NCBI GenBank assembly: GCA_026545225.1
Contig: CM048848.1
Coordinates: 18,155,353 to 18,219,352 of the forward strand
DNA from: Cornus controversa
Lineage: Eukaryota; Streptophyta; Magnoliopsida; Cornales; Cornaceae
Reading direction: 5' to 3'
DNA length: 64,000 nt
Shown here in pieces: positions 17,937-64,000 of this stretch. The notes under the pieces were generated by a model. That model did not search any database and was not told the origin of the DNA. It worked only from the letters and a program-made list of their open reading frames with translations. Each line of letters begins with the position of its first letter. Position 1 is the first letter of the stretch. A program made the position numbers and the translations under genes.

Positions 17937-18146
17937 AGAGTTCAGAAAATCAGAACTCAGCATTCAGCAATATGGAATCCAAAAATCAGAATACAGTATT
18001 CAGCAATGTGTAATTCAAAATTTGGAATTCAGTTTTCAGCAATATGGAATTCAAAATTCAGAATTCAGCTTTTAGCAATATGGAATTCAAAATTTGGAAT
18101 TAGTATTCAGCAATGTGGAATTCAAAATTTGGAATTCAGTTTTCAG
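17937..18146 (+). repeat. 36-bp GGAATTC-rich minisatellite, copy 1
   Basis: About five to six units of roughly 36 bp built from caatatggaattcaaaa and tttggaattcagttttcag, with point changes. It is rich in gaattc. Related arrays lie at 30400-30702, 37663-37872 and 46132-46411, and a remnant at 41729-41752. The open frame through it (NSKFGIQFSAIW) reflects repeat length, not a gene. Confidence 0.9.
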
Positions 18147-24880: not shown

Positions 24881-25160
24881 GAGATTGATAGGCTTCAATA
24901 TGTACACCCTTGAGTGTAGCTACAAATAACTTGTAGAAGCCCGCTCTTTTAATAAACCTCCTTTTTAGCCATTTAGACTTCCGTTTAGCTTTGTATATTC
25001 TCTTTAAAAGCTTCTTGTGATATTTTAGGCCTTGTACCTGTTCTTAATCTTGACAAGAATATAGCTAGAGTAGACTTTTAGTAGCACAAATATAAAGGAT
25101 GCAAGTAAAACAATTTGCACTCAAAGAAACCAAAGTCAGCATGCATTTTTAGCAAATATA
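24881..25160. repeat. Block between kinase fragment and minisatellite, copy 1
   Basis: Corresponds to 45868-46140 and 61255-61528: tagacttccgtttagc, then a ctttaaaagcttcttgtga stretch and atgcaagtaaa, ending at tttagcaaatata, where the Pack-type element is inserted. Confidence 0.6.
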
Positions 25161-25851
25161 GGGCCCGTTTGGATAGGTGTTTTGATATTGGTTTTTGTTT
25201 TAGCAAATAACATAACATGTGTTGTGTTATTTTAATGTTTTGAATATTAATTGACAACGTGTTTGGTAACATTGTTGTATTTAATGATTTACAAAAACAG
25301 AAAATGCCTAACATATTTGGTAACGTCAATGCGTTATAAAAAATTTGAAACCAAAACACTGAAAACACGTTTGGTAGCTCCAATTGTTTCCAAAAAAATT
25401 TGAAACACAAATTGAAGCTTGAAAAGAATAAGTAACATAACAAACATCCCAAGCGAAACTTAAAGATCATTCTCATACAAAAAAGAAATAGTTGTGCTAA
25501 ACTTTTTCATGAGAATCATATGCTTGAAATTAGTAAAATCAAACTCACCGAAAAACAGTGTCTAGTGAATTTGTCTCTCAATAAGAACCCACGAGAATGA
25601 TATAAATAATGTTTCTTTATATAGAGTATTTTACCAACTTCGTTAATCACAAGCAAGGCCAGCCCAATCAAACTCACTAAAAGAAGCTTGTTTTGTTCTA
25701 AAAGATTCTAGGGAGATAATCTTGATCACAGAAAAGTACCTCCACGAAATCAAATGAAAGAAAATATTTAAATAGGGGATAAAACTTTAACAGACGCCCT
25801 TCTCGCCAAAGCTGCAAAGCAAGACAATTCAATCAAAATAATAGAGAATTT

Positions 25852-26112
25852 ATGAATCAAATCGTTACCTTCCAAAACAACAAATCCAAAAAAATAATAA
25901 TAATAAGTGAAGATCATCAACATCCTACAACTGTTAACAAAACCATGTGTTCAGAAATTATCATAATCAAACGAAATGGACTATATACCCAAACTAATAG
26001 CAAAATCCAAATTGACAAACTCTGTAAAGATATGAAATTAGAACCCCATAATCAGATTCAAATCATGGCCAATAAACAATTGAACACAAAACATATCCTC
26101 TCAATTGAATAA
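25852..26112 (+). other. Unassigned open frame in the Pack-type element
   Basis: 86 codons with N and K rich composition, conserved at 62220-62480 in the second copy with a few substitutions. No motif was recognised. It is probably chance openness in AT-rich DNA. Confidence 0.2.
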
Positions 26113-26272
26113 TAAATTTCCAATTCATTTCTTATATCTAAAACGCAATAACAATTCCAACAATATACAACACCAGAAAAATCAAGCTCCGAGAAATCCA
26201 ATTCTAGTAATTTCCAAGTATTTTACAAGAATGAAGCCAATAAATCAAGAATGACTCGTGCTGGCAACTTCA

Positions 26273-26398
26273 TCAATCCTTGAACAACGACCAATCACCA
26301 TGATTATGATCCTTCTTGGACGGATCTTTGTCTTTTCAGTCATCCTAGTCGATGTCGTCCTCGTCAAAGGGCTTTTCTTTGTGGAAAATGCAGCATTT
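26273..26398 (-). pseudogene. PPP1R11-type protein phosphatase 1 inhibitor, captured last exon
   Basis: After a good acceptor (cattgctcag) the exon reads KCCIFHKEKPFDEDDID, a TAG, DD, a second stop, then KDKDPSKKDHNHGDWS. The KCCIFHKEKPFDEDD signature followed by an acidic and histidine-rich tail is typical of inhibitor-3 / PPP1R11 proteins, small nuclear inhibitors of protein phosphatase 1. The upstream DNE-FM exon is absent. In the second element copy (62641-62766) the first stop is TAT and the frame goes on two codons further. Confidence 0.85.
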
Positions 26399-27119
26399 CT
26401 GAGCAATGAAAGTTAGACATTAGGTGAAAGAAATTAATATGCTATAAAAAAGTAGTTTTCATGACCAATGTAATGCTATGCCCCTTGTGCATTCTCCCAA
26501 GCACATTCACACCAATAATAGTGGATCATCTTAACATCCCTGATAAACTAACTTTTTTTCCCATCAAATCAATTTTCATTAGGCTCCATTATTTCCAGAG
26601 AACTTAAATCAGGAAAGGGTTGCATCATGGAATCATACACTATAAAGCTAACATCTCAATGCCATAGAACTTGAAGCAAGACCTAATATTAGGTTCATGA
26701 GACTCTGTACATGTAATATATTATTCACAAAAAGAAAAACTAAACACCGAACCTTACTAAATTTGTATCATACATCAGGATCATCTTTTATATGCACCAT
26801 ATAGTAGACTTAAATTCATAACGATTCCCCAAAGATTAACATTGATCGGTGGGAAAATAATCCAACTTACCTTTCTATGGAGGTAGGACGTTTCCAAACA
26901 GATTCAACAAAAAGTAATATTTTTATCCATGAAATTACACATTGATCTTAGATTAAATTTGTTATTATCTCATTCATTACAAGAATAGAGTGCAGTGGTC
27001 TCTTTTTACCTTTCCTTGATGAACAATATGGTACAATCAATGGCATTCACAAATTTGGTACAATAAGATGCCACTATCTCAAGATAAAATGAATAGACAA
27101 CTCAGTTTAAGTTTTGTAC

Positions 27120-27651
27120 CTGTATTAGATCAACCAAACTTTTATGACAACCTGCCAAAGAAGATGCACTTTGTCCGAACATGAGTGCACTACTAATTTC
27201 TTCCAAATCATTTGAAGCTTGCTGAGGTGACTTATCACCCTCTGGCTCCTCATTATGAGTTGGCATACAAGGTGTTGATTCTCCCTTGAGATAGTGGGTG
27301 GAGGAAGCATCGGGTTCAAGTTAACATTTGCATAGTAGTAGGCAAAATAGGCTAGATCAGAGCGCAGTTGTTTCTGAGACTCACAATTTTCAATAGCACT
27401 ATTTAAACTTGATAAGCTTGAACTCAAACTATAGTTCTGTTGAACCATAAGGTTCCCAAAAGCTGCTCCATACTTGAAGGTGCACTACCGCTTCGATTTG
27501 GAACCATGTTTCGTTGATCTACGTGAAATCTGTGCCTTTTCAGAAGCAATCCCAACTCATATTCTGCTGCGTTATTCAATGGTGATACAAATGTTGTAAT
27601 ATCCTTGGAAAAGGACCATTTTCTGGCTTCACTGCCTTCCACCATTCTCAT
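27120..27651 (-). pseudogene. Pumilio (PUF) RNA-binding protein, captured N-terminal exon
   Basis: The first exon of an APUM-like gene, before the PUF repeats. It has MVEGSEARKWSFSKD, then [52 protein letters not shown], and in another frame [15 protein letters not shown] followed by donor gtacaaaac at 27119. These are conserved stretches of the plant Pumilio N-terminal region; the proteins repress mRNAs by binding their 3-prime ends. An ATGGCAACTGAG (MATE) start just upstream is out of frame with the rest. A further frameshift follows SSME and another follows ISREN. The RNA-binding repeats are absent. The second copy begins at 63498 and runs off the window. Confidence 0.9.
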
Positions 27652-28035
27652 ACTCAGTTGCCATCCTACTTCAAGAATAAGGATCAAATTTTCTATCAAA
27701 TATGATTTTCACGTTTCTTCTGCAATGCAGCTAGCCATATCATCCTAGCCCCCTTCATCAATTAAAAGTCACTGGTAACTGAGAATAACAATTCCCATCA
27801 AAGAAGTGAGGAAAGTGGTAGAATGCAGCACCAAAGAAATTTACTTTAGATTGGAAAATATAGTCTCGTTAACATAAATTATATAACAGCCTCTTAGTTG
27901 ATCAACAATGAAAATTCACACAACCAAATTAGTCCAAATTAAAGATTATAGTTGCTGACAGAAGATAGAGAGCTGGTAATAAAAATGTCTGAACAATTCA
28001 ACTAAATGGAACATAGCATATGCATTGCAACACAT

Positions 28036-29428
28036 TGATCGGCGTTGAATGTTACGCATTCTAGCCTCTTAATTTACATATTTTATTCTCTTAGTGATAG
28101 TTTATATGTGATTTTACTCTGTTTTTGTGTTTTCTGTCTTTTTCAGGGCCTTAATGATTATTTCAGATAAAACCATGATTTTGGGCTTTTAAAGATAATA
28201 TCCAAGAAGGTTATATGAAGCCTACATCTAATGGGTCCATTCAACTCCATATTTCAACTCAAATCAGCCCAAGGAAGAGGTTCAAGAGAATTACAACTGC
28301 TTAAGAGGATTACGGGCCTAAAGCCCAATTCTACACTGAATCCAGTTTTAATCCCGTTTTGGAAAGTGGACTAAAAAGCTGATTTCTGAGTGTCAATTCG
28401 ACTTAATTCCCGCGTTGGTTGAAGAAAATTCGATTCTGGACACTTTTGTATTTCACGTAAATTTCGTGAATCGGACTTCTACTAGGTCAAAACTTGGGCC
28501 GAAAGTCAGCAGAAAAATCTACCTATTTTGGGCTGCGGGAAAACCCTAATATTCTGCTAATTGGATTAGAACTTTATCTCCTAATTGAATTAGGACTTTA
28601 TGTATTCTCTTGGGGTATAAAAAGGTGAACTGGAGGCTGTTTTGGGGGAGAAAAAGAAGTGGAGGCCAAGGCAGAGAAGACAGAGACAATCCGGGTTTTA
28701 TTTACTTATTATGTCTTTTATTTATTTGTTATCTTCTTCTTCTACCATGTGTAACTAAATTCCTCAACTAAGGTTGAGGAGGAAACCTCCATTAATGAAG
28801 TGAAGTTCTTTTGTTCATTAATTGATTCTCACGTGTATGATTTAAATTCTTATGATTTTTGCTTCTTGTGATTAATTATTTTATAGTTCTTTCACCATCT
28901 ATATCATGTATATGTGGTAGTTAGAAGGTATTATAATTAATCTAAGCTTGGGTTTGTATTTCTTAAAAGTGATAATCTTTGATCTTATGTTTTTCATTAA
29001 ATTGGATACATAGGATGCTTAGAATTTTACACAAGTGAAGCGAAGGAAAATCTACCTTTTAATATATTTTTCATAGTGCTTTATTGTTAAATCTTGAGTA
29101 AGCAATAGATTGATTTCTTGATTGCTACTCTAACTTTGGGAATTAATAAATGAATATTTGAAACTTCATGGATTTAATAGTGGTGGAATCCAAAACCTTA
29201 GTTATTTTCTCTATTTGATTTCAATAGTGTTATTTTATTTTCATGTTAGTTTAATTTCTCTCAAATCAACTAAACTTGTGTTTAAACTAGATTAGTTTTA
29301 AATTAATTTGAATTTGTATTAGTTTTTCTTCTCAAAGCATTCCCTTGGGTTCGACCTCGTTCTTGCCGAACTATACTTTAATAGATTCGTACACTTGCGA
29401 GTTATTTAACAAATTTAAAACAACATCA
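28036..29428 (+). mobile_element. Solo LTR, 1.39 kb, inside the Pack-type element
   Basis: Starts TGATCGGCGTTG and ends AACATCA, with the 5-base duplication cacat at 28031-28035 and 29429-29433. There is no coding sequence. It matches the insertion at 34509-35937 in opposite orientation along its length. TG...CA ends, 5-bp duplication and lack of a second LTR or internal domains indicate a solo LTR left by recombination. The second element copy at 61529 onward does not reach this position within the window. Confidence 0.85.
28616..28624 (+). promoter_or_regulatory. TATA box of the solo LTR
   Basis: TATAAAAAG preceded by ctcttgggg, about 580 bases from the LTR start. It is followed by a purine-rich stretch (gaggccaaggcagagaag) that would be near the transcription start. 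In the sister LTR the same place reads tattaaag. Confidence 0.5.
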
Positions 29429-29851
29429 CACATGAATTTTAGTTTTTATTCCCTTACTAGAATTTTCCTTCTCTAACACGTTTGCACTGGCAATCTATCT
29501 CTATCCCCACACAGTATAACAGGCTCTCTTACATGTCTTTTAAAACCACAACTGGCCAGGGTAAGGTAATACCTTGTTCAACCAACCCCATACCCAATAA
29601 TCAGTATACACACGTATAATAATAAATAAATAAAAAGAATAATCAAAACCCAAAAGATCACATCTTAAACACAAATCAGAGCCAAACCCTAATTGAAATT
29701 CAAGAAAATCTTCACAATCCTCAAGAAAATGATCAATTAAGTAGATCATCAATAGAAAATAGAAAAAGACGGAAAGAAAGTCACACATACACACGTATAT
29801 GTAAAGAAATTTGAATATCAAAATGTATAATTGTTGAGATCTAGGACTCAC

Positions 29852-30047
29852 ATGTAATGGGTAAGAATGCGAAGAAGAGCAAAAGGCCAGGTTTTCCTCT
29901 GAGGAGTTCGTTGACGGGAGAGTAGAGAACAGTGTCGGAGGAGACGATGGTGGTGAGGAGGATCTGGGCGGAGAGTATGTCGTAGACCTTGCGTATGAAA
30001 CCATATGGCAAGTGGTTCTCTCCATAGCCAAGACCTTGGTCTTTTTA
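29852..30047 (-). pseudogene. LIFEGUARD / BI-1-like (TMBIM) membrane protein, captured exon
   Basis: The minus-strand exon starts after acceptor attttcag and reads KDQGLGYGENHLPYGFIRKV then YDILSAQILLTTIVSSDTVL, PVNELLRGKPGLLLFFAFLP, ending before a gtgagt donor at 29851. This is the N-terminal part and first membrane segments of plant LIFEGUARD proteins (Bax inhibitor-1 superfamily; calcium and cell-death modulators of internal membranes). One frame is open through the exon. The cytosolic start and the remaining five or so membrane helices are missing. Confidence 0.9.
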
Positions 30048-30399
30048 CTGAAAATGTAATAGAACTAGGGCTTCCGACACAAATCGCCCTTAAATCGCCA
30101 GAGCGAGGAGAGAGAAATTTAGGCCAAAAATGACCAAAGTGTTTTCAGTTTTGGTTTTTATATGTGATGCGACTATGAGGATATTGTTTCGGCCGCTACA
30201 GTGCCTGTTATAGAATTGGGCCAGAAAAATTACAAAACATAACAATATCACCAATTTTCTGTTACTGATTTTGGGCCCAAATTGATACCGTTTTTAAACT
30301 TTTCAAACCAAATCAAGACTTGCCAAACATGTTTTGGGCTAAAAAATTGAAATCATAACACAAAAACAATATCAAAACTGGCCAACTAAACAGGCCCAT

Positions 30400-30702
30400 A
30401 GAGTTCATAAAATCAGAACTCAGCAATATGGAATCCAAAAATCAGAATTCAGTATTGAGCAATGTGGAATTCAGAATTCAGTTTTTAGCAATATGGAATT
30501 CAAAATTTGGAATTCAGTATTCTGCAATGTGGAATTCAAATTTGCAATTCAGTATTCAGAAATGTGGAATTCAAAATTTGCAATTCAGTATTCAGCAATG
30601 TGGAATTCAAAATTTGGAATTCAGTATTCAGCATTGTGGAATTCAAAATTTGGAATTCAGTTTTCAGCAATATGGAATTCAAAATTTGGAATTCAGTTTT
30701 CA
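30400..30702 (+). repeat. 36-bp GGAATTC-rich minisatellite, copy 2 (longest)
   Basis: About eight units of 36 bp alternate cagtattcagcaatgtgg and aattcaaaatttggaattcag. Because 36 is divisible by three and the unit has no stop, all three forward frames stay open (30428-30787, 30493-30759, 30507-30713). It starts immediately after the target duplication of the Pack-type element. Confidence 0.9.
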
Positions 30703-31945
30703 AAGGTATATAGATGCAGAGATAGGAGCTGCCTTAAACACTTCACAAACACCTTATAAAGATCATATATCCTTGCTTGTGTTCTAATAGCAGTCAGAAA
30801 CCAAGATAATAAGATATGCCTTTTCTTAAAATGGATGAAAGCAATTATAATATACGAAATCAGGTTTCAAGAGGTCAAAATTCGATGATGCTACAAAACC
30901 ATCCTCCAACAAGCACAAACAGACTAAATATGAAGAATTACACTTGTTAGACTTGATAGAGACAAATCAACTATTAACATAATCATTTTTGACAAAATCA
31001 GAATCTTTGGACAGCAAATATAGTGCAAGGGTTGTGATGCTGATGAACAGAAAATAATGCAGCCTTTAAATCATACTTTATTCATTGCAAACCCCATCAC
31101 ATAACATAATACATGTAATCAAACTCTTTGATTCGAAACATCCACTGCATTCATCCAAAAGGGGAGAGGGCTTGTTTTTACTAGGATTCTTAGTTGACGC
31201 TGATGGTTTAGCCACGTGGCTAGCTTTGAGGGCCTGTTTGAGCATCATGGGAACTACTTTTGGAGACAATTCAATCCACATTTGAAGATGCCTTCGGGAT
31301 AAGGAAACTTGGCCTGGACTGCAACAACCAACAAGGGGATAAGTTACTGCTGTTCCTGTTCCTGGTGGGACAGTTGTTGGGAAAAGAGAAAAACTCATTT
31401 TATGAACTCGATTTTCAATTAACTGGTCATAAAATACATTTTACACTTGCTAAGATAGCTCATATTAGTGTAGAAATCAAATGAAACAGATTTGCTTCTT
31501 TTTTTATATGGTTGACAATAACAAGAAATTATATCAGCAATGAACAGTAACTTCGCAGAAAGAATATCAATTTCAATCACAGCCTTAAACTACCTTCAAG
31601 CAAATGTTCAACAGATCATACATGATGTTTGAAACTTGCCTAAATCACCCATGTTAGCCCAGAAGCTAATTAGAGTAACCTCAGCAATCATTAGGTAAGC
31701 ATGTCAGTGGTGTAGTCATGGATTTTAGTGAATATGAGATGGAAAATACTCAATATATCAGATGTAGCATGTTGTAATCATCAAGAATACATTTCAGATT
31801 AGGCAATGATGAACCAGACCTCTAAGAAACATTTTAACAGTAACTAACAGCTCAAAATAGAGGTTTGAATGCCAAGAAATGCGTGGAGGCTCATATTCAT
31901 CTTTAAACTGACTTTGTTAATGTAAATCAACAAAACACACTCGTA
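30703..31945. repeat. Conserved unidentified array block, copy 2 (partial)
   Basis: Aligns with 18150-19085 but lacks the right part. It is interrupted by a unique 338-bp insert at 31080-31417 and fuses at about 31945 (acactcg|taaactaatggg) to the SINE block. Confidence 0.6.
31080..31417 (-). other. Unique 338-bp insert with unidentified open frame
   Basis: Absent from the other copies of this block, where tagctagcatta stands in its place. On the minus strand it holds a 106-codon frame from ATG (about 31398) to a stop, with MSFSLFPTTVPPGTGTAVTY and later SGCFESKSLITC, followed by an aataaa word just after the stop. This looks like the 3-prime end of a transcript, possibly a captured or retroposed gene fragment. 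The family was not recognised. Confidence 0.4.
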
Positions 31946-61528: not shown

Positions 61529-62640
61529 GGGCCCGTTTGGATGGGTGTTTTGATATTGGTTTTTGTTTTAGCAAATAAAATAACATGTGTTGTGTTATTT
61601 TAATGTTTTGAATATTAATTGACAACGTGTTTGGTAACATTGTTGTGTTTCATGATTTACAAAAACAGAAAATGCCTAACATGTTTGGTAACGTCAATGC
61701 GTTATAAAAAATTTGAAACCAAAACACTGAAAACACGTTTGGTAGCTCCAATTGTTTCCAAAAAAATTTGAAACACAAATTGAAGCTTGAAAAGAATAAG
61801 CAACATAACAAACATCCCAAGCGAAACTTAAAGATCATTCTCATACAAAAAAGAAATAGTTGTGCTAAACTTTTTCTTGAGAATCATATGCTTGAAATTA
61901 GTAAAATCAAACTCACCGAAAAACAGTGTCTAGTGAATTGGTCTCTCAATAAGAACCCACGAGAATGATATAAATAATGTTTCCTTATATAGAGTATTTT
62001 ACCTACTTCGTTAATCACAAGCAAGGCCAGCCCAATCAAACTCACTGAAAGAAGCTTGTTTTGTTCTAAAAGATTCTAGGGAGATAATCTTGATCACAGA
62101 AAAGTACCTCCACGAAATCAAATGAAAGAAAATATTTAAACAGGGGACAAAACTTTAACAGACGCCCTTCTCGCCAAAGTTGCAAAGCAAGACAATTCAA
62201 TCAAAATAACAGAGAATTTATGAATCAAATCATTACCTTCCAAAACAACAAATCCAAAAAAATAATAATAATAAGTGAAGATCATCAACATCCTACAACT
62301 GTTAACAAAACCATGTGTTCAGAAATTATCATAATCAAACGAAATGGACTATATACCCAAACTAATAGCAAAAGCCAAATTGACAAACTCTGTAAAGATA
62401 TGAAATTAGAACCCCATAATCAGATTCAAATCATAGCCAATAAACAATTGAACACAAAACATATCCTCTCAATTGAATAATAAATTTCCAATTCATTTCT
62501 TATATCTAAAACGCAATAACAATTCCAACCATATACAACACCAGAAAAATCAAGCTCCGAGAAATCCAATTCTAGTAATTTCCAAGTATTTTACAAGAAT
62601 GAAGCCAATAAATCAAGAATGACTTGTGCTGGCAACTTCA

Positions 62641-62766
62641 TCAATCCTCGAACAGCAACTAATCACCATGATTGTGAACCTTCTTGGACGGATCTTTGTC
62701 TTTTCAGTCGTCATAGTCGATGTCGTCCTCGTCAAAGGGCTTTTCTTTGTGGAAAATGCAGCATTT
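62641..62766 (-). pseudogene. PPP1R11-like captured exon, second copy
   Basis: Reads KCCIFHKEKPFDEDDIDYDD then TGA. It keeps the acceptor cattgctcag. One stop fewer than in the first copy, so it is closer to the captured source gene. Confidence 0.85.
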
Positions 62767-63497
62767 CTGAGCAATGAAAGTTAGACATTAGGTGAAAGAA
62801 ATTAATATGCTATAAAAAAGTAGTTTTCATGAGCAATGTAATGCTATGCGCCTTGTGCATTCTCCCAAGCACATTCACACCAATAATAGTGGATCATCTT
62901 AACATCCCTGATAAACTAACTTTTTTTCCCATCAAATCAATTTTCATTGGGCTCCATTATTTCCAGAGAACTTAAATCAGGAAAGGGTTGCATTTGGTTG
63001 CATCATGGAATCATACACTATAAAGCTAACATCTCAATGCCATAGAACTTGAAGCAAGACCTAATATTAGGTTCATGAGACTCTGTACATGTAATATAGT
63101 ATTCACAAAAAGAAAAACTAAACACCGAATCTTACTAAATTTGTATCATACATCAGGATCATCTTTTATATGCACCATATAGTAGACTTAAATTCATAAC
63201 GATTTCCCAAAGATTAACATTGATCGGTGGGAAAATAATCCAACTTACCTTTCTATGGAGGTAGGACGTTTCCAAACAGATTCAACAAAAAGTAATATTT
63301 TTATCCATGAAATTACACATTGATCTTAGATTAAATTTGTTATTATCTCATTCATTGCAAGAATAGAGTGCAGTGGTCTCTTTTTACCTTTCCTTGATGA
63401 AAAATATGGTACAATCAATGGCATTCACAAATTTGGTACAATAAGATGCCACTATCTCAAGATAAAATGAATAGACAACTCAGTTTAAGTTTTGTAC

Positions 63498-64000
63498 CTG
63501 TATTAGATCAACCAAACTTTTATGACAACCTGCCAAAGAAGATGCACTTTGTCCGAACATGAGTGCACTACTAATTTCTTCCAAATCATTTGAAGCTTGC
63601 TGAGGTGACTTATCACCCTCTGGCACCTCATTATGAGTTGGCATACAAGGTGTTGATTCTCCCTTGAGATAGTGGGTGGAGAAAGCCTCGGGTTCAAGTT
63701 AACATTTGCATAGTAGTACGCAAAATAGGCTGGATCAGAGCGTAATTGTTTCTGAGACTCACAATTTTCAATAGCACTGTTTAAACTTGATAAGCTTGAA
63801 CTCAAACTATAGTTCTGTTGAACCATAAGGTTCCCAAAAGCTGCTCCATACTTGAAGGTGCACTACCGCTTCGATTTGGAACCATGTTTCGTTGATCTAC
63901 GTGAAATCTGTGCCTTTTCAGAAGCAATCCCAACTCATATTCTGCTGCGTTATTCAATGGTGATACAAATGTTGTAATATCCTTGGAAAAGGACCATTTT
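63498..64000 (-). pseudogene. Pumilio captured N-terminal exon, second copy (partial)
   Basis: Same exon as 27120-27651, reading [20 protein letters not shown], then [20 protein letters not shown], closer to the family consensus (SDPAY, NPRL) than the first copy. The frameshift after SSME is shared, so it predates the duplication. The start lies near or beyond the window end. Confidence 0.88.

Follow-up and report, generated by a model that had tools for sequence, protein, structure and literature searches.

How did one DNA transposon come to carry pieces of several unrelated genes, and to which superfamily does it belong? Positions 25161-30397 of the window (the whole 64,000-nucleotide stretch of Cornus controversa DNA analysed here) are a non-autonomous DNA transposon. 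An earlier note, made from the letters alone, had described imperfect terminal inverted repeats of about 43 bp, an ATA duplication and an empty site in three sister array copies, and alignment confirmed all of these. The repeats start with GGGCCYGTTT and can be aligned over that length with small gaps; local alignment of the two 360-bp end regions gave a score of 99, and among 1000 letter shuffles the highest score was 79. In the window, CAAATATAGAG stands without an insert in each of three array copies, near 17.9k, 37.6k and 46.1k. Since no difference separates the 17.9k stretch from the 37.6k one where they were compared, the distinct empty alleles number two and not three. The same filled site was found twice more outside the window, at C4:19.87 and 19.90 Mb, and since the flanks are common to four C4 loci, these represent duplications of a single insertion. 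Apart from some small gaps and roughly 0.3 kb at 25401-25724, sequence within the element could be assigned to its ends, to host genes or to a solo LTR (Table 1).

Table 1. Features of the element and of its second copy (positions in the window)
Position	Strand	Feature	Comparison
25158..25160	.	Left target duplication ATA, 3 bp	Alignment with empty sites
25161..25400	+	Left end: terminal repeat GGGCCCGTTTGG and subterminal region common to other elements	90% to left end of L060 over 240 bp
25725..26400	-	Piece 1: INH3/PPP1R11 coding end, 3' untranslated and downstream DNA	78-87%, 4 blocks, C10:37698600-37701800 (L065)
26405..26738	-	Piece 2: intron of homeodomain gene	92% to L046 1501-1844, C7:57674263-57674606
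26731..26738	.	A-rich short homology, overlap of piece 2 and piece 3 alignments, putative progenitor join point	
26731..29602	-	Piece 3: Pumilio first coding exon and flanking non-coding DNA	85-95% to C1:93816929-93821419
28031..28035	.	CACAT, left duplication of solo LTR	
28036..29428	.	Solo LTR, TG...CA, 1393 bp	Lacking in sister copies L004, L005, L006
29429..29433	.	CACAT, right duplication of solo LTR	
29616..30031	-	Piece 4: LIFEGUARD/BI-1-like, part of exon 1 and intron 1	90% to L061 927-1350, C5:28566926-28567349
30101..30397	+	Right end with terminal inverted repeat; minus strand reads GGGCCTGTTT	79% to right end of L060, 302 bp
30398..30400	.	Right target duplication ATA	Alignment with empty sites
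61529..64000	+	Duplicate of this filled site, left part, without solo LTR, cut by window end	

The captured genes are four: INH3/PPP1R11, a homeodomain gene, Pumilio and a LIFEGUARD/BI-1-like gene, and all four pieces lie in the same orientation. The three gene fragments previously named on the minus strand are all present, each with a likely source gene, but the source genes number four. The homeodomain piece, which consists of intron only, had been overlooked; it is 94% identical to its source in the sister copy L005. In-element Pfam matches among the 7 ORFs scanned were sub-threshold (PF01027, E 0.0022) or weak (two unrelated families, E 0.11 and 0.23), and the gene names were therefore taken from the source genes. 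The INH3 source carries PF07491, the sole match in the genome at E <= 0.001, and the combined readings of the exons flanking the homeodomain intron gave Homeodomain PF00046 at 2.1e-8. The Pumilio source gene has PUF and NABP domains further downstream; a search with this piece returned 9 matches (11 of 11 candidates scored), only C1:93.82 being outside a family element. The LIFEGUARD source exon matched PF01027 at 3.4e-5, below Pfam's cut-off, and an alternative LIFEGUARD-like site at C4:58944214 matches equally well (89%) across less sequence. Two other loci, L062 and L064, have the LIFEGUARD piece with further DNA upstream of it.

The likely source loci lie on four different contigs, C10 (INH3), C7 (homeodomain), C1 (Pumilio) and C5 (LIFEGUARD), which disposes of the possibility, raised in the earlier note, that the fragments are neighbours in the genome. 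Nor are the GGGCC ends peculiar to this element, the other circumstance that would have spoken against capture by a transposon. The left-end region alone (query 1-346) accounted for 25 of 53 matches to 25161-28040 (40 of 306 candidates scored), and the right part of the element also has many matches in the genome (40 of 188 candidates scored). Comparison with the parent genes, as the note had proposed, revealed that non-coding DNA was kept; since intron and untranslated sequence is still present, capture took place at the DNA level and not by retrocopying.

The absence of a transposase from 25161-30397 was borne out by a Pfam scan, in which none of 7 ORFs (6 of them in the element) had a transposase match. 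Matching ends are, however, found on L060 126-6975, a 6.85-kb element flanked by TAT on both sides; its identity to the sister copy L005 is 91% at the left end (240 bp) and 81% at the right end (245 bp). L060 contains DDE_Tnp_4 (PF13359; 2.1e-9 and 1.1e-11) and a second protein with a Myb/SANT domain (PF12776, 8.5e-19). The search for an autonomous partner thus yielded an element with PIF/Harbinger domains, although its transposase sequence is split over two frames/ORFs, and L060, the one candidate read at full length, is best described as a candidate transposase-bearing partner.

PIF/Harbinger terminal inverted repeats start GG(G)C-rich, as do those shared by the element and L060. To follow the target duplications over many copies, 16 short stretches at previously located ends were read. 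Both flanks were readable at 8 separate insertions and unreadable at 3 further ones; C7:38.72, C5:53.64 and C6:42.59, with an end degenerate or lost, were left out of the count. The duplication is 3 bp at all 8 (TAT in 4, ATA in 3 and TAA in 1, so that ATA/TAT make up 7/8). The window element has ATA in place of the TWA (TTA/TAA) triplet of PIF/Harbinger; in the relevant passages of PMC8903248, TTA/TAA account for 52.4% (rice) and 81.2% (maize) of PIF duplications, a majority and not an exclusive preference. Judged by ends, domains and duplication length, we assign the element to the PIF/Harbinger superfamily as a Pack-type member. Of the PIF/Harbinger-like and Mutator-like affinities that had been suggested, the former stood and the latter did not.

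Elements with all four gene pieces occur at four separate sites: the window family, C1:24.73 (L034), C7:38.72-38.74 (L036, L048, L058) and C5:53.64 (L035). All four share their INH3/homeodomain and homeodomain/Pumilio junctions, and three share the Pumilio/LIFEGUARD junction, C5:53.64 being deleted there; duplications could be read at two of the sites (ATA and TAA). All four pieces recurring together at separate sites, the four-gene element was evidently moved as one unit to more than one place. Two further relatives each have two of the genes. C6:42.59 (L040) consists of the left end, INH3, homeodomain and part of the right end, with no Pumilio or LIFEGUARD; its right terminal repeat is lost, and the homeodomain piece is separated from the right end by about 730 bp. 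Conversely, C4:59.37 (L041/L038), which lacks INH3 and homeodomain, has the left end, Pumilio, LIFEGUARD and the right end. The former has the INH3/homeodomain junction of the four-gene elements, and the latter their Pumilio/LIFEGUARD junction. In C6:42.59 the homeodomain piece extends to source position 1873, as against 1844 in the four-gene elements, and the additional sequence was equalled by none of 5000 shuffles; in C4:59.37 the Pumilio piece starts at source position 1264, as against 1501. Both relatives thus pass the central junction, where the alignments overlap by 8 bp and about 11 nt are alike, which suggests that the four-gene element is a recombinant of two two-gene elements.

Could the four genes instead have been captured one after another in a single lineage, with C6:42.59 and C4:59.37 as deletion derivatives or independent captures? 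Internal deletion does happen in the family, as in C8:7.735, where INH3 position 2369 is joined to Pumilio 2486 and the homeodomain piece is lost. But the two relatives hold source sequence past the central junction that is absent from the four-gene elements, and so are not deletion products of them. As deletion cannot add sequence and independent capture would not repeat the junctions, this reading is contradicted, and we regard it as very unlikely. The JC distances are in keeping with a fusion of two progenitors. Between sites, four-gene copies are 0.056-0.091 apart, whereas C6:42.59 differs from them by 0.107-0.126 in INH3 and homeodomain, and C4:59.37 by 0.121-0.142 in LIFEGUARD and the right end; in the Pumilio segment, the distance of C4:59.37 to the four-gene copies (0.078-0.100) is little more than theirs to one another. 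The distance to the homeodomain source is 0.088 for C6:42.59, 0.053-0.071 for the window, L005, L035 and C7 copies, and 0.120 for L034, and faster decay could contribute to the C6:42.59 distance. It is chiefly the junctions that support the grouping.

Among gene-capturing elements Pack-MULEs are the best known, and about one fifth of them hold pieces of several loci according to parts of PMC12030055, so that a Mutator-like origin deserves consideration. We find it extremely improbable, because the duplications are 3 bp in 8/8 insertions, not 9 bp, and the ends are common to L060, with its DDE_Tnp_4 and Myb/SANT domains. Multi-gene chimeras are typical of Helitrons and some retroelements, and the element too is such a chimera; nevertheless, intron and untranslated DNA is retained and inverted terminal repeats and a target duplication exist, and we give capture by retrocopying or by a Helitron practically no credence. 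Mutator, Helitron and retrocopy were thus ruled out by duplication length, inverted ends and kept introns.

A functional chimeric gene, in which LIFEGUARD exon 1 with its donor, the Pumilio exon and the INH3 last exon and 3' end would be spliced and translated or act as RNA, seems very unlikely. The common orientation of the pieces would suit it, as would a 215-aa open frame across the Pumilio exon in C1:24.73 and the dN/dS of this exon relative to its source (0.34-0.64 in 5/6 comparisons over the whole stretch and 0.31 in a partial one, three of the six being duplicates of one insertion). However, a neutral copy compared with a conserved source should also give a dN/dS between 0 and 1, the LIFEGUARD piece has neither start codon nor promoter, and the INH3 piece is interrupted by in-frame stops. 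Moreover, the Pumilio exon of C4:59.37 has three stops, and copies show length changes. Most likely, the captured pieces are passive, decaying fragments.

We therefore consider it highly probable that this is a Pack-type PIF/Harbinger element with four genes captured at the DNA level, built by fusion of two two-gene elements and moved in trans. Host DNA would have been gained in steps, probably via templated repair after breaks within or beside elements. An INH3 and homeodomain element may then have been joined to a Pumilio and LIFEGUARD element at the short A-rich homology, either through template switching or through a deletion linking two like-oriented insertions that lay next to each other. 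With one outer end retained from each progenitor, the hybrid would have been mobilised onward by transposase supplied in trans, and the array holding it presumably duplicated later; one array copy would then have received an LTR retrotransposon, reduced to a solo LTR.

Pack-TYPE PIF transposons of maize and rice likewise have non-autonomous PIF-type ends and captured gene pieces (Gisby and Catoni 2022, PMC8903248, in part). In the maize Pack-PIF example worked through there, the elements are about 535 bp, with gene pieces of 163 bp and 58 bp; here the element has 3.84 kb and four genes, and, unlike in that example, both two-gene progenitor types survive. The TTA/TAA-rich duplications of rice and maize (same passages) also differ from ATA/TAT in 7/8 here. 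Fusion of neighbouring elements has been inferred, for example, for groups AB and BB of a rice Pack-Mariner family (sections of PMC8903248). Similarly, in the hybrid-element model for Pack-CACTA, as outlined in portions of PMC13317346 and PMC8903248, neighbouring elements fuse via terminal deletions and move as one; in contrast to that model, the fusion point here lies at a short homology inside captured gene DNA, and the unfused types can be recognised.

Pack-MULEs capture gene fragments as here, but belong to a different superfamily, whose inverted repeats are long and whose duplications measure 9 bp; the window element has 3 bp. Extracts of PMC2528002 also give 9-nt duplications for Mutator-type elements. 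Pifvine-3 of grapevine, in the same extracts, is a PIF element with transduplicated genomic DNA, exons and introns, and 3-bp duplications, as here; its added DNA is a long 5' region, the family encodes transposase and its duplications are mostly TAA or TTA. A multi-gene series such as the present one is not described in those extracts.

The element is thus a well-documented Pack-PIF, known in kind, whose fossil series is unusually complete: the fused product coexists in one genome with two intermediate types and the likely source genes, the junctions are exact, and the order of fusion can be read. The view that loaded elements fuse gains support and is extended to a large PIF/Harbinger element. 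We lean slightly towards a broader reading, that Pack-PIFs are assembled in modules, loaded elements recombining at short homologies, and that in this lineage ATA/TAT has replaced TWA as the target. If so, gene pieces would be shuffled stepwise between loaded elements and not only captured one by one, which bears on the debated origin of multi-gene content in DNA transposons, and the apparent ATA/TAT preference would bear on the target specificity of this transposase lineage. Right flanks read alone at 9 more ends were TAA/TTA in 5 or 6, TAT in 2 and CAA in 1, and being mostly TAA/TTA they weaken the shifted-target part.

The solo LTR, a feature that the earlier note had missed, splits the captured Pumilio piece. 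As it is missing from three sister copies, it inserted later, and the original element measured about 3.84 kb. Among 40 scored of 5929 candidates, at least 36 other near-full-length copies of this LTR were found, with identities of 92-96%.

The ends of the element at 25161-30397 of the window pair inversely in an alignment across about 43 bp with small gaps, and its end regions gave a local alignment score of 99, as against 79 for the best of 1000 letter shuffles. The element is flanked by CAAATATA on the left and ATAGAG on the right. In three array copies without the insert, two of them identical across the compared stretch, these flanks reduce to a single CAAATATAGAG, and the insertion therefore created a 3-bp ATA duplication. 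The GGGCC-ended transposon, the ATA duplication and the empty sister sites described in the earlier note were thus all borne out. Across the genome (771,699,077 bases, 61 contigs, here C1 to C10 with positions in Mb; the window occupies C4:18155353-18219352), the duplication was 3 bp long in all eight insertions with both flanks readable, and was ATA or TAT in seven of them (see the table). C8:13.81, which has the same flanks as C8:14.32, was counted together with it, and C7:38.72, C5:53.64 and C6:42.59, with one or both ends unreadable, were left out. Nine further ends, read on the right flank only, showed TAA, TAA, TTA, CAA, TTA, TTA, TAT, TAT and probably TTA; TAA and TTA are therefore also used, which counts against an exclusive ATA/TAT target. 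A minisatellite with a unit of about 36 bp (GGAATTCAAAATTTGGAATTCAGTATTCAGCAATGT-like) adjoins the insertion site in array copies (30410-30720, 17946-18129 and about 46.2k). The array copies at 17.9k and 37.6k, about 19.7 kb apart, have the same sequence across the empty site, which points to recent duplication of the array unit.

No transposase was found inside the element, as the earlier note had stated, and movement would thus require one from elsewhere. A candidate partner is L060 (126-6975 of that stretch; C8:14.32 Mb), a 6850-bp element bounded by the same left and right ends and by TAT on both sides. Its left end is 91% identical over 240 bp, and its right end 81% over 245 bp, to those of L005, a sister copy of the window insertion. 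L060 codes for DDE_Tnp_4, across two neighbouring frames, and for a Myb/SANT ORF. The second ORF of PIF/Harbinger elements is of the Myb/SANT type. The gene pair of L060 is that expected of PIF/Harbinger, for which PMC2528002 describes a transposase plus a second ORF. Together with the 3-bp duplications, it decides between the two affinities proposed before, for PIF/Harbinger and against Mutator. L060 itself may be dead, because its DDE_Tnp_4 frame is split.

The LIFEGUARD, Pumilio and PPP1R11 pieces noted earlier were all recovered, but the count of three did not hold, as there are four sources, including a homeodomain-gene intron that, being intron sequence, is invisible to protein-level reading. 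All four pieces lie in one orientation. The matched genes on C10, C7, C1 and C5 are likely the sources; lying on four different contigs, they are not adjacent in the normal genome. Alignment of the pieces to these genes showed that intron and untranslated DNA was retained, and capture was therefore from DNA. Of 22 candidates, all of them scored, the INH3/PPP1R11 source is the sole one in the genome to match PF07491 at E ≤ 0.001, and the neighbouring exon readings at C7:57.67 Mb, when combined, matched the homeodomain (PF00046, 2.1e-8). The Pumilio exon alone has no Pfam match; PUF and NABP domains lie downstream of it in the source. The LIFEGUARD/BI-1-like source exon, from a gene that we take to be LIFEGUARD, matched PF01027 at 3.4e-5, under the Pfam cut-off, and a second such site (C4:58944214) is 89% identical over a shorter part.

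Features of the element, and target duplications read on both flanks
Feature	Position	Strand	Details
INH3/PPP1R11 piece: gene end and 3' DNA	25725-26400	minus	78-87% to C10:37.70 Mb
Homeodomain-gene piece: intron	26405-26738	minus	92% (sister copy 94%) to C7:57.67 Mb
Pumilio piece: first coding exon and non-coding DNA on both sides	26731-29602 minus LTR	minus	85-95% to C1:93.82 Mb
LIFEGUARD/BI-1-like piece: part of exon 1 and intron 1, without start codon	29616-30031	minus	90% to C5:28.57 Mb
Solo LTR	28036-29428		1393 bp; starts TG, ends CA; CACAT on both sides
Duplication ATA	window; C4:59.37; C3:76.94
Duplication TAT	C10:23.43; C8:14.32; C9:38.02; C8:7.735
Duplication TAA	C1:24.73

A search with the whole element gave 47 matches (40 of 5929 candidates scored). 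On the same scoring, the solo LTR repeat has at least 36 other near-full-length copies (92-96%), among which four pairs are spaced 6.6-7.1 kb, as expected for retrotransposon LTRs. Three further copies of the filled site (C4:18216881, 19866326 and 19895207) are 97-99% identical to the window locus, flanks included, and so represent one insertion later duplicated along with the array. The LTR is missing from all three; it is therefore younger than the array duplication and arrived last. The regions at C4:19.87 and 19.90 Mb are inverted duplicates of the window array region, about 1.7 Mb off, each with the same transposon insertion.

When relatives were mapped against the four source genes, all four pieces were found in the same order at four separate sites: the window, C1:24.73, C7:38.72-38.74 (treated as one element that a large insert has divided) and C5:53.64 (where a deletion runs from Pumilio into LIFEGUARD). 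All four sites share the INH3/homeodomain and homeodomain/Pumilio junctions, and three of them share the Pumilio/LIFEGUARD junction. C8:7.735 is an internal-deletion form. Two other elements carry two pieces each. C6:42.59 has the left end, INH3, homeodomain and a partial right end, without Pumilio and LIFEGUARD; C4:59.37 has the left end, Pumilio, LIFEGUARD and the right end, without INH3 and homeodomain. In C6:42.59 the homeodomain intron continues for 29 bp past the point where it stops in the four-gene elements (a match reached by none of 5000 shuffles), and Pumilio begins 237 bp earlier in C4:59.37. This extra source sequence beyond the central homeodomain/Pumilio junction rules out an origin of both by deletion from a four-gene element, since deletion cannot add sequence; independent capture is ruled out by the shared junctions, which it would not repeat. 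We infer that the four-gene element derives from one element of each two-gene type. The join falls within an A-rich stretch common to both parts (8-bp alignment overlap; about 11 nt alike, with one mismatch). JC distances are consistent with the two-type origin in the INH3+homeodomain and LIFEGUARD+right-end segments, and weakly separated in the Pumilio segment. Most four-gene copies are closer to the homeodomain source than C6:42.59 is, so part of the distance of C6:42.59 may reflect faster decay. An unrelated repeat of about 0.4 kb lies within the Pumilio piece of C4:59.37 (L041, about 991-1420) and is 80% identical to a stretch next to the left end of the element on C7 (L036, 3564-3891).

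Before this fusion, the gene pieces would first have been taken up one by one. Two neighbouring elements may then have lost their facing ends and moved as one, as in a published model (PMC8903248; review PMC13317346); template switching during repair would fit the sequence equally well. The captured pieces are most likely passive cargo, because dN/dS between copies and source of the Pumilio exon (0.34-0.64 in five full-length comparisons, 0.31 in one partial) is as expected for a constrained gene compared with a neutral copy, and because stops occur in the INH3 piece and, three of them, in the C4:59.37 Pumilio exon. Earlier work describes PIF gene capture in grapevine (PMC2528002) and maize (PMC8903248), cargo from several loci in Pack-MULEs (PMC12030055) and inferred element fusion in rice Pack-Mariner and others (PMC8903248). 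The Cornus controversa element is an unusually complete example of this known kind.

Some relatives carry a single piece. INH3 is the only one of the four in L044, which has both ends, and in L050, which has just the left end. LIFEGUARD is the only one in the stretches read of L062, L063 and L064, where it stops at the same point of LIFEGUARD as it does in the four-gene elements. These relatives may be older, or they may have arisen by deletion. Across LIFEGUARD and the right end, the largest distances are those of L062 (0.203-0.263); L064 lies 0.125-0.152 from the four-gene copies, about the same as C4:59.37. The LIFEGUARD/right-end stretch recurs at 78-79% in at least nine places (C8:13750091, C8:14372226, C1:40525488 and six others, L063 being one of the nine), perhaps an older LIFEGUARD-bearing subfamily. 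Upstream of the LIFEGUARD-bearing right end of L064 (C9:42.56 Mb), an ORF at 288-587 resembles the last part of aldo-keto reductases (PF00248, E 0.089, under the cut-off); it may be a fifth gene, captured by another member, or a gene adjacent to it.
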